Positions 8,473 through 64,000 of a stretch of DNA of 64,000 bases are shown piece after piece. The stretch is from Polytrichum commune. Lineage: Eukaryota; Streptophyta; Polytrichopsida; Polytrichales; Polytrichaceae. The notes under the pieces were generated by a model, which worked only from the letters and a program-made list of their open reading frames with translations, was not told the DNA's origin and did not search any database. The stretch is from the NCBI GenBank assembly GCA_950295325.1, contig OX485807.1, forward strand, positions 12,241,001-12,305,000. The letters run 5' to 3'. Position 1 is the stretch's first letter; each line of letters opens with the position of its first letter. The position numbers were made by a program, and so were the translations under genes.

Positions 8473-8700
8473 CACTGATTATCCCAATTAGCACATGTTG
8501 CTATTCGGAGATATGCTTGGTAAAATATTACACTATTATTTGATGAGAACGTAATATTTTTACCAAGCAAAGTTATTCATGCTTTATGGTGTAAGAATAA
8601 CTTATCGAACTTTTGTTAGTAGAATTTGAACTCTTGAGTAAGATGTTATTGCACTGCATAACTCCAAACAAGTAACACATACTAATTGGGATAATTAGTG
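8473..8700. mobile_element. MITE, CACTGATTATCCC-ended (228 bp, TA flanks)
   Basis: The left end is CACTGATTATCCCAATTAG and the right end CTAATTGGGATAATTAGTG. Both sides are flanked by TA. The body resembles 7069-7284. TA duplication suggests a Tc1/mariner-like mover, but no matching transposase is present. Confidence 0.65.
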
Positions 8701-9634
8701 TAGTTCACTCTCGTCCTCCTCTACTTATGAGCTCTATATATATTTATGGTGTTGAAACTGAAACTGCACCCAAAATGAACACTGTAAAATCTTGCACAAT
8801 ATGTACATATTGATAATGAGAATCCACTACCTTAGCATCAAATTCCCATGTTGGTGTTTAGTTCATTTTCCAATAAAACTTCGAAACCTTGTCAATTTTG
8901 CAAAAATAATATAAATAATACATTTCATTGGTGTGTTGGGATCCCATCTCAATTGCTAACAAGAATCGTTTAAAACCTATTTGAGTCTAAGGATGGTATT
9001 ATTGCTCTATGTTTCAAACGACAGTTTTAGCACCACCTACCCTCACACATAATTGTAACAATGATTGTAAGGTACATGTTGCTAAAACCAACAACCCACC
9101 CAAAACCAACACCTTAGAAATGTGCACAATGAGTACATTTGGAGTAGGAGAATGCCCATTGGGATATTGTGTTAGTTTGTTAATAACCTACCAATAGGAT
9201 GTTGAAACTTTATAACTTTTACATACAAAATTGAAACAACATATGCTTTGATGCATTGGAATTCCTCATCAATTGCTAAAACCAACCATTTAAGATATTT
9301 CATTGTCCAATAAATAGCATATAGGATTAAAGCAACGGTTTAAGCACCATCTTACGTTTACGGGGGAAATTCGAGAAGGTGATTTGAAAAGATTATGGAT
9401 GAAAAAACTCGGATGTAATTTTTTCTTCCATTGGGGGACCCATCAAGGAGATCATTGTGGAGTTCATTTTATGACGCATCAATTTGGGAATTATTATTAT
9501 TTTTCTGCTGTGAGATAATGATGGCTAGCCGACCACGTTGTTGCTCTCAAGTTTGGAGTGTCCATGAGCCTCAATCAGTTTCCCATCACTATGAATGACA
9601 CGTGTATATATGTAACTTATCACCCTCTCATCTC

Positions 9635-59048: not shown

Positions 59049-59345
59049 TAGCTACCACTTGGGGCAAGCCGCATCAACGGTCAACGTGTTGATGGCTTCT
59101 CCAACTGTTGTTGATGTTATATAATTTCAAAATATATATTGAAAGCGTATTTAAAAATACATTTGAATGTTCTTTTGTTTGTGAAAGAAAAGAAAAGAAA
59201 AAAAAAAATAACGCCCGTATTTTCACACGAGCATGACTGCGAGCCCGTTGGCCTCATACTAATCACGGGGTTCCGTGATGTAGTATGTGGTTTTATGCCT
59301 CCCTTAGGAGGTGGGCTCTGGTGGTTCTCTAGAAGTCCATTTTAA

Positions 59346-60707
59346 TTAAGGTGGGGGTACGGGTGGCTGTTTATTGTCGAGTTTTCTTTTATTAAGTACC
59401 AAGTACGTGAGGTATTTAATAGCGTTTTGGTGTATGTCTTTCATGAGTTTTTTGATGTTGGATTTAGGGATTTTTAAGTCCGTTAGTTTTTGGATGGAAT
59501 GTTCGTGTATGGCTCCTCGTACTCCTGCAGTGATTGTTATAACGGGGTTGGTTTTCCAACCCTTGTTGTGGATGGCGTGATTTAGTGGGTCGTATTTGGC
59601 GTGTTTCTGTGCAATGGCTTGTTCAGGGAATCTGTCGTGGCAGTAAGTGAATTCGATAAATTGTACTGTGTGGTTGGATGATGGTAATACAGGTAGGGTG
59701 ATATGGTTTGGGGCACCGATCATGCATAAGATGTCAGGTCTAAGTTTAGCTTGACATTGGCACGGCGTTTGGGGGCATGCACATGCTAATAACCATTCTG
59801 GTACTGTGGTTTCTTGTGGCCGGTTGTTGAGATGTCCGGCATTGGCTCTTGTGAGGAACCGTGTGTGTTTGTTGGCTTGTAGTGTTTGTGTGATCAGATG
59901 TACTGCTTTGTTATGTCTTGCGATTCGGAGACCTTTTAAGTATGGGTGTTCGCATATTGATAGTAGGTGCGGCCACGTGTCTCTCTCATTTCTGTGGCAA
60001 AGTGTGCAGTTGGGGTTTGGGTGTGTAAGGGGCCAAAATATACTTTTCCTATGGTTGCCCATATATTGAGCGTATCAAAATTTTAATGTTTGGGTGATTT
60101 GGGTATATGGTATTTGGTCATTATTCCAAAAGTGATTAGAGAGTTTTTGGTTTATTTGGGTGTTTGAGAGCCATTTATCTACGTATGGGAATTTATTTAT
60201 GGCTAAGGTTGTTTCTAAGTTGTCGTGTGCTTTTGTTATGAATGTGCGTAAGTTACGGATGGCTCCGTCATGTGTGCCTGTGGGGCAGCTGGCAAGCCAG
60301 TAAGGGGTGGGGCGGGCGATGTGGATGTGTGGGGTTTGTTCTGGTTTTTCTAAGTTATTCCCTTCATTTGCTAGGGCATCGGCTAGTTCATTTCCGGTGA
60401 TGCCCGTGTGCGCTCGGACTTTATGTATGTGGATTTTGTGGGGGGTCCAGCAAATCTTCCTTACTATGGCGGCTATAAGTAGTTTGTCAGGGTGGTGGTG
60501 TTGTATGTGGTTATTTATGAGGTATATGCTGTTGAGGCTGTCGGTAAATATGTGTGATTTTGTTTGTGTGATTTTTATGTTTTTGATAGCGAGGAGTATG
60601 GCATATAGTTCGACTCTAAGTATATTCTGATAGCCTGGTAGTCGTTTGTGAATGTCTTTATTGGCATGTGTGGCTGCTCTTTTGAGAAATGGAGGGTCAA
60701 TCACCAT
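59346..60707 (-). pseudogene. C-terminal part of a non-LTR retrotransposon: RNase H, CCHC knuckle, restriction-like endonuclease
   Basis: On the - strand one frame runs about 453 codons with a single internal stop (TGA at 60077-60075). The upstream 210 codons form most of an RNase H domain: E33 in RVELYAILLA, D56 in IFTDSLNS, H100 and D110 in RAHTGITGNELAD. The first catalytic Asp lies before the break at about 60707. The downstream 238 codons hold a zinc knuckle C19-x2-C22-x9-H32-x4-C37 followed by RIARHNKAVH, then a PD-(D/E)xK-type nuclease: RPD (D110), E137 in QFIEFTY, and KHAKY (K153, K156). The knuckle, RHN and RPD/K..KY order is that of R2-type restriction-like endonuclease elements, but R2 lacks RNase H. 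Dualen/RandI elements described from green algae combine them. The reverse transcriptase is missing through 5' truncation. The strand is A/C-rich, unlike its surroundings, and decay is slight, so the insertion seems fairly recent. Confidence 0.75.
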
Positions 60708-62283: not shown

Positions 62284-64000
62284 ACAACGGAAATTGCCCA
62301 GCTCCTTTACGCGTTACACTTATTGTGACAATATCTTGGACCATACTATGAAGCTTTATGTTTCCACACTAAAAACATTGGGAATGACATGTTGGTGCAC
62401 ACTATATATCAACCCACACTATTCAATATTAGAGGTTCAAATGTAGGTGATAGTATTCTTTTTTTCTGGATTGAAGATTATGTGAATTTGAAAAATCACG
62501 ATTCTAGGGAGAGTCGGTGGGTGTATCGGTGTTGTTGGGGGGGGGGGTGACAAGTGTGACTATGAGTGCACATTGTTTTCATGTGTGGTGGTGTATATTG
62601 CAGGCCCTGTTATAGGATTGTCCAACGTAACTCACATAATACATTTTTTCATATTGTTTACTATACGTTTTGGAATGTAAACCACGTGTTCAAACTACAC
62701 AATTATAAACTGGGGATGGTAATGAGCCAAGTATCATAAAGTTGTCTTGTTTTGGACCATGGTCATGTTGATTTGGAGTTTGTTTTGTTCAAACCCATGG
62801 TGTGAGGATCCACTTGTTGTACTAAAGAGTGATAGGAACAAGGGTGATCATATTTATTGTGGAAAACAGATCTTGAATTATTTTTCAGTAACTCCGTCTC
62901 CCATCATATTTGCAACTACTTGACATTTGATGGTTTATTTGGGTGCAAACACATTGGGGGGGGGGGGCACACCTAGTGTAAAATGTTGTACATACATGCG
63001 ATATTTTACATGTTTTAGGGGGGGGGGGGAGGGTTTTATTATTTTTTGCCTACATTTTGAGGGCCCTTCAATTATGTCCTATTGGAATCCAAGTCTTTTG
63101 ATGGGCTGGTATCTTAATTGTAATTTTCGGAGCATTCATATCCATAATTGTATATTTATCTTAAGAAATGCCAAGAAAATGAAAGTAGGACTAGAAGTAA
63201 TCAAAATGTATTTCAAGATTCCAACACAAATTCACCCAAAAATCCCAACCTCTCTTGCCACCACCACAACACCCATTCGGAACTTACCAAAAGTTGTTTT
63301 AGGGTCTTTGTTTCAAAAACATCGATAACCACCATATTGTAATCTGACCGATCTACCATCGATTCCTGTTGTTTAAAAGAGAAAGAATAACAATCATATA
63401 AATTGGATGAAATTGCCAACTTTTGGATGAATATGTACAAAATTGGATGAAATGCATATACCCAACCATATTTGGCTTCGTGAATTCAATTTTAACATAC
63501 GTACTATGTGGTCTCTGTTCTATTTCTAAAAAAGAATCACATGGTGGGAAACATAGTGGACCTATTCTTTGGTGAGGAGCCCAGGCTAGAGCTCCCGGTC
63601 ACTTAAATGTTCTCCTCCTCCTAGGGTTTCCACTGCAACCCTAGTCTTTTGAATGGCGTTGTTGTGGAGTAGGTGGGTGATGCTTTGTTGATGGGCGAAT
63701 TCAACCCCTAAACGGCGGTTCACATTCCTCTACAATCATCTCCCTTCTGGTGCACTCCCAAAGTTTGTCCAATATTAGTCCAAATGTTTGTGAAGGTGGC
63801 CCTATATGATTAAGTGTCTTCCTTTGTGCATGTGTGTGAACATATGTAATTTTGGGTAGAGTGTGTATTTTATGATGAAGAAGGTTCCTTGCAAGAAGAT
63901 TGCACTAAATTCTCTACATGATCCATTAGGACCAAAGTGCCTTCTTCCGAAACTTGTTAAGTTCTTGATTCATTGTAAAGGGCAAAGCATACAAGGCCGA
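62284..64000. other. intergenic DNA, no recognisable gene
   Basis: G runs of 11, 12 and 12 nt lie at 62537-62547, 62956-62967 and 63018-63029. The 133-codon frame at 62927-63328 spans two of them and has no motif. The end of the window (63600-64000) shows CTCCTCCTCCTAGGG and otherwise nothing I can name. Any gene crossing the window edge cannot be judged. Confidence 0.4.

Follow-up and report, generated by a model that had tools for sequence, protein, structure and literature searches.

A Dualen-like LINE with two endonucleases and an extra PCIF1-like domain in the land plant Polytrichum commune

A 64,000-nucleotide stretch of the Polytrichum commune genome (contig OX485807.1, positions 12,241,001 to 12,305,000; assembly GCA_950295325.1), referred to here as the window, carries on its minus strand what is very probably a dead, 5'-truncated copy of a Dualen/RandI-like non-LTR retrotransposon, from a family that is abundant, recently active and expected to move by a dual-endonuclease mechanism. 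Longer relatives in the same genome point to a Dualen-like LINE with an extra PCIF1-like domain, a design known so far mainly from algae in the parts of the literature available to us. Within the family, the window copy is unremarkable: dead and truncated, neither full-length nor near-intact. The original prediction had called it nearly intact, but it is truncated inside RNase H, and the description fits other copies of the family instead.

The copy was recognized by two minus-strand frames, at 60707-60075 and 60074-59346, separated by a single stop codon (60075-60077) at which several siblings are open (e.g., L002 and L004). The protein of the first frame matches the Pfam RNase_H family (PF00075) over residues 16-116 with an E value of 3.8e-13. 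The first 21 or so codons of this frame are host flank, open by chance; homology to sibling copies begins near 60647, and the start of the element is placed at about 60643. An exact 9-bp repeat, TTCACAAAC, is found at 60652-60644 and again at 59185-59177, where its two Ts could equally be tail. Since the repeat brackets both ends, the extent of the element is set at 59186-60643, as also traced by BLAST against the full-length or long copies L009, L013 and L014. Because the truncation falls inside RNase H, the remaining part of that domain (60360-60643) lacks the first catalytic Asp, found in YTDG in full-length copies, and retains the E, D, H and D residues. The second frame has no Pfam match at E ≤ 1, but it is far beyond chance, as all 150 of its scored matches in the genome have E values of at most 1e-123. 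It encodes a CCHC knuckle of the form CX2CX9HX4C (59952-60008; C23-C41 of its protein), followed by RHN, RPD, FIEF and KHAKY, the last of the form KX2KY, which make up the core of a putative restriction-like endonuclease (RLE; 59439-59927). The ORF2 stop codon lies at 59346-59348, where the feature had originally been ended; the element continues to about 59186 through a structured 3' UTR (59204-59318) and a T-rich tail (59186-59208), consisting of a T-run and then CTTTT repeats like the tails on other copies. Thus, the two frames with their single stop, the RNase H and the knuckle and endonuclease motifs of the original prediction are all present, while its boundaries had to be redrawn at both ends. 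Elsewhere in the window, 62536-63031 has three runs of C, each about 11-12 bases long, inside 500 bases.

The genome assembly comprises 407.8 Mb in 64 contigs, nearly all of it in seven contigs of 42-78 Mb; gene-family matches include 70 for GRAS, 22 for DYW deaminase and 1 for K-box, where one gene may give several. GRAS and DYW families mark land plants, and the small DYW and K-box numbers together with seven chromosomes resemble a moss. A 5.8S pattern had no match in the genome. A genome search with the second frame gave 6,480 rough first-look candidates, among which 150 were scored. These have 74-100% protein identity to the window copy, are distributed over all seven large contigs, and include divergent subfamilies and decayed members. 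An exact signature of the 3' UTR occurs 364 times in the genome, compared to 0 for the reversed pattern. The full-length element is about 12 kb and consists of ORF1 followed by ORF2. In copy L009, ORF2 is open for 2,372 aa. ORF1, counted from the first ATG in joined adjacent stretches, has 1,294 codons in F09 (L016 joined to L009) and 1,497 in F13. DNA similarity between subfamilies is no longer seen in the 5' portion of ORF1, some of which may be leader, and four pieces of two ORF1s matched no Pfam family above cut-off (best E 0.0099). The full-length copies F09 and F11 (L019 joined to L011) are 98.6% identical across 11.9 kb; a third, C1, is about 100% identical to F09 in the two stretches compared, its first 700 nt and the PCIF1-like region. 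Since three full-length copies at different sites are 98.6-100% identical where compared, the family has moved recently; taken together, its copies indicate abundance and recent activity in the land plant host. The F09 and F11 subfamily carries a tandem duplication of the N-terminal ORF2 block that holds the 2A-like motif.

The same distribution bears on whether the element represents contamination or a recent horizontal transfer from another organism. A foreign origin had been proposed from the A/C-rich coding strand, and no Dualen from a land plant was found in the literature surveyed, insofar as its texts were accessible. However, the composition is a family-wide trait, the copies are diverse (down to 74% protein identity among the 150 scored), and copies on all seven large contigs, among them divergent subfamilies and decayed members, render contamination or recent transfer scarcely credible. 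Nor were relatives found in viral_contigs with RLE, PCIF1-like or RT queries, or in genome_contigs and phages with the RLE query alone, by short-peptide-pattern scans that distant relatives can escape. An ancient transfer would be compatible with all of this.

ORF2 is read in the order 2A-like motif, AP-endonuclease (APE), R2-like reverse transcriptase (RT), PCIF1-like domain, RNase H, knuckle and RLE. The Pfam families Exo_endo_phos(_2), RVT_1, PCIF1_WW and RNase_H appear in that order in all three ORF2s scanned. PF14529 and PF03372 lie N-terminal to PF00078 in each of them, PF03372 falling below cut-off in one; the APE region of L009 submitted alone gave E values of 4.4e-8 and 9.6e-6, both above cut-off. 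Residues that we take to be those of the APE motifs can be read in one ORF2 protein. RNase H (PF00075) matched with E values of 1.3e-14, 2e-16 and 4e-15. A G-D-x-x-x-N-P-G-P motif occurs upstream of APE in six of seven loci (five joined copies and L014), the seventh, L015, having only an unrelated NPGP; what we presume to be the canonical 2A form was found in F12 only. One locus, L012, has an internal deletion within RT. Purifying selection was examined by pN/pS in six pairs of four copies, with F13 contributing without part of its APE and with synonymous sites near saturation. The ratios were 0.27-0.39 for APE, 0.11-0.14 for RT, 0.23-0.31 for the PCIF1-like region, 0.08-0.17 for RNase H and 0.16-0.20 for the knuckle plus RLE, and constraint was weaker in the N-terminal part (0.44-0.53, three pairs). 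On these ratios, both endonucleases are under purifying selection.

The C-terminal region was compared among nine aligned copies, including L013. There is no variation among the nine in the Cys and His residues of the knuckle, in RHN, in FIEF, or in the two K and the Y of KHAKY, and the Asp of RPD is retained in eight, L013 having N. In the passages on RLE motifs in PMC5678591, the knuckle is given as CX2-3CX7-8HX4C, the first helix has an RH, KX2KY begins with the catalytic K, and there is a GXW motif. By comparison, the family's knuckle is one residue longer, and no W for GXW was seen. Searches of PDB sequences with the RLE returned R2Bm chains alone, weakly (E 1.1-1.7). With hhalign, collinear matches were obtained to two R2 pieces, picked because they already aligned to the family: one with P 1.5e-5 over 45 columns (probability 80%), the other with P 1.4e-4 over 58 columns (52%). 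A single-sequence AlphaFold2 prediction of the RLE frame had a mean pLDDT of 34. At the level of motifs, then, the C-terminus qualifies as an R2-type restriction-like endonuclease with a CCHC knuckle.

An alternative would be that this is a plant L1-type LINE that has acquired an RNase H and has a degenerate C-terminal zinc region merely resembling an RLE. RNase H does occur in plant L1 elements, according to the portion of PMC4640811 consulted, and APE together with target duplications is L1-like. The RT speaks otherwise. Against the PDB, the ORF2 RT matches R2 proteins with an E value of 1.3e-39 and no L1 at E ≤ 1, whereas for two L1-type LINEs from the same genome the situation is opposite, L1 ORF2p being best (1.3e-53 and 7.5e-59) and R2 weaker; the family RT is therefore not L1-like. 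The RNase H of the family retains a His, but the archaeal-type RNase H of plant L1 has an Arg there (PMC4640811, same portion). The near-complete invariance of the RLE residues and the purifying selection on that region are also contrary to a degenerate remnant, as is a 3' end made of structured UTR and (CTTTT)n rather than poly(A) to an L1. An L1 origin is accordingly very improbable, and recovery of full-length copies, a check proposed with the original prediction, gave an architecture that is not that of a standard L1 or RTE element. An L1-type LINE is also found at L117 (G000:C5:10509000-10516000), with an ORF2 of 1,845 aa and an RT nearest to L1 ORF2p.

In the three whole-ORF2 scans, PCIF1_WW scored 25.5-27.4 bits, below its curated cut-off of 31.1, but when the region was extracted, PF12237 matched in six of six members (best E 4.1e-9; 31.7 bits for the first member). 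A genome search with the region gave 150 scored matches among 2,324 candidates, which makes it a regular part of the family. Searches of the PDB with a single PCIF1-like sequence or with a profile returned no PCIF1 chain at E ≤ 10, so the homology is one drawn from Pfam. PCIF1 methylates cap-adjacent adenosine and has an NPPF motif. Since the equivalent stretch here, aligned by eye, reads AFPT, catalysis by the PCIF1-like domain is doubtful. One could imagine a cap-binding, perhaps catalytically dead module, recruited from a cap-adenosine N6-methyltransferase of the PCIF1 family, that recognizes the capped 5' end of the element's own RNA, so that full-length RNA would be marked for reverse transcription while two unrelated endonucleases would cut one strand each; we offer this as a speculation and think it unlikely. 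A LINE with a PCIF1-like domain was not described in the literature surveyed, to the extent that its texts were accessible.

At the 3' end, the copies share a structured UTR. Tails were found in 66 of 67 loci parsed (L025 being missed), and 50 were aligned, the other 16 comprising L021 and L056, which are odd, and further occurrences of identical tails. Four helices were kept, in which 98.5% of 1,372 cells pair, while slid structures pair at just 28-44%. Both sides of a pair have changed in 110 cells, compared to 36.7 in shuffles, with none of 500 shuffles reaching 110. The number of helix pairs showing a double change is only weakly above the shuffles (11 compared to 9.0; 17 of 500), and the number of further pair types, 22, is below the shuffle mean of 24.5. 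A model built from the 50 sequences, the window copy among them, matches the window at 59204-59318 with 124.8 bits, its sole match there at E ≤ 0.1; Rfam had nothing at gathering scores in six loci. Downstream of the last hairpin come a T-run, (CTTTT)n and then varied flanks. A SINE sharing the LINE tail was considered among 28 truncated copies and rejected; two locus pairs shared upstream sequence, and a common head was lacking.

Those 28 are the copies, from 40 tail loci fetched, that are truncated within the fetched stretch; 27 of them could be parsed (L102 was dropped). Direct repeats of at least 9 nt lie near both ends in 12 of the 27, where 2.3% of a mismatched-pair control reach at least 8 nt, and the other 15 have no clear duplication. 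All four full-length copies with 5' ends fetched (F09, F11, F13 and C1) have repeats of 11-12 nt abutting the tail; these include Ts shared with the tail, and that of C1 is ambiguous in that the satellite in which it sits offers other matches. This satellite (C1:44779700-44780200, L076, and L027) is a tandem one with units like TTGGTTTAGTGTAGG. Varied 3' flanks across 55 copies compared (the junction is not visible in L038 and L059) indicate dispersed sites and not one rDNA site. Immediately before the left duplication core, 12 of 15 rows have a T and the other 3 a C (the L001 row left out), which fits an A-ended primer pairing with a U-rich tail. The element at L014 (G000:C6:36433700-36443099) has on its two sides a direct duplication of 477 bp with 2 differences (reverse-complement positions 353-829 and 8684-9160), unusually long for a target duplication.

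The 5' ends suggest an RNA that begins at the ORF1 ATG, on the basis of one subfamily. F09, F11 and C1 share sequence from the ATG onward, within one base, so the RNA may begin there with A and without a 5' leader. Between the left duplication and the ATG there is an unrelated stretch of 60 nt in F09 and 54 nt in F11; in C1 it would be 16 nt, taking the 11-nt repeat there as the duplication. In F13, 123 nt precede the ATG, with an uncertain element boundary. A conserved 5' leader in full-length copies was considered and rejected: the leaders differ among three near-identical copies, and two of the four contain pieces that recur in the genome. For F09, part of the stretch has 37 further matches (40 scored of 582 candidates); for F13, 41 nt are found again at one place on C3. 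Twelve of the F09-type places, when aligned, show that the F09 piece derives from the interior of a dispersed repeat. Our reading is that the 5' stretches are filler left by end joining or template switching. The dispersed repeat that was the source of the F09 junction filler (L120-L131) has 37 matching places among the candidates scored.

The family thus combines features of several known systems. R2 elements have a structured 3' UTR, as here, and are RLE-only elements inserting at one rDNA site. The family resembles them in its RT, nearest to R2 in the PDB, its CCHC knuckle and its RLE with RH, RPD and KX2KY, but it differs in having APE, RNase H and ORF1, and in using dispersed sites with short duplications. 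With plant L1 it shares an N-terminal APE, target duplications and 5' truncation, as well as the RNase H of some L1 elements; it departs from them in an RT that does not match L1, in the presence of the RLE and PCIF1-like domains, and in the CTTTT tail. Dualen is said to have been described originally by Kojima and Fujiwara in 2005. Chlamydomonas Dualen encodes a cysteine protease, which may or may not be defining; no protease family appeared in Pfam scans of three ORF2s and four ORF1 pieces, which a divergent domain could escape. This result, the closeness of the RT to R2 and the extra PCIF1-like domain would favor a separate lineage related to the R2 group, with its own assembly of APE, RNase H and RLE and an ancestry apart from algal Dualen/RandI. 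Such a history would leave the mechanism unchanged and overlaps with the interpretation of a Dualen/RandI-like element. We consider it a real but lesser possibility, since the unusual domain set of Dualen recurs in a green-plant host, for which vertical inheritance is the simpler account. Because the likeness is one of domain design rather than of an RT tree, and because the protease of Dualen was not found, we do not file the family as a Dualen member; the best reading of its sequence is that it works like a dual-endonuclease LINE.

In the passages available to us, Dualen/RandI is placed in green algae (PMC4438587, PMC3747384), reported in Chlamydomonas relatives (PMC8226300), and described as expanded in most cryptophytes (PMC12747079). 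The likeness to it consists of an APE and a PD-(D/E)XK endonuclease encoded together (for Dualen, PMC3636483), RNase H in the same ORF (PMC4640811), and, as in green-algal RandI, a non-poly(A) 3' repeat tail (PMC3747384), each as given in excerpts of those papers. The land plant host is a difference. The PCIF1-like domain between RT and RNase H, the 2A-like motif, the length of about 12 kb and the large ORF1 may be further ones. Oomycete Utopia, from a group with U2 genes as target, also has RLE and RNase H, but its RNase H is upstream of RT, according to the same part of PMC4640811, and here it is downstream, with APE in addition. The combination of APE, RT, RNase H and RLE in full-length copies upholds the original suggestion of a Dualen-like or new lineage in a land plant, though not its foreign origin.

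A most likely route of insertion can be proposed from what the copies display, namely their domain order, purifying selection, RNA structure, duplications, tail-target pyrimidine match, truncation and filler. We infer that the ORF2 protein binds the structured 3' UTR of its own RNA. One endonuclease would nick the bottom strand at dispersed sites, an A-ended primer would pair with the U-rich (CUUUU)n tail, and reverse transcription would start. A staggered second cut would give the short duplications, mostly of 7-17 bp. Synthesis that stops early would leave a 5'-truncated copy, and filler would enter at the 5' end by end joining or template switching. Both endonucleases presumably cut, perhaps one strand each, with the PCIF1-like domain contributing in some conjectural role.

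The position of Dualen, with both nucleases, has been used to argue that RLE gave way to APE in the evolution of LINEs (PMC4640811). A 2022 review gives the LINEs of land plants as L1 and RTE, and mentions neither Dualen nor RandI (PMC9033089). A Dualen/RandI element in a land plant was likewise not reported in the literature surveyed, which mostly consists of texts outside subscription. The present family would widen the land-plant list beyond the L1 and RTE of that review. Should Dualen-like elements that keep both nucleases under selection be thriving in a land plant, the arrangement becomes studiable in a multicellular host with young copies, and the family would permit matched tests of which nuclease nicks what, of how the site is selected by a structured 3' UTR and tail, and of what the PCIF1-like domain does in a retrotransposon.
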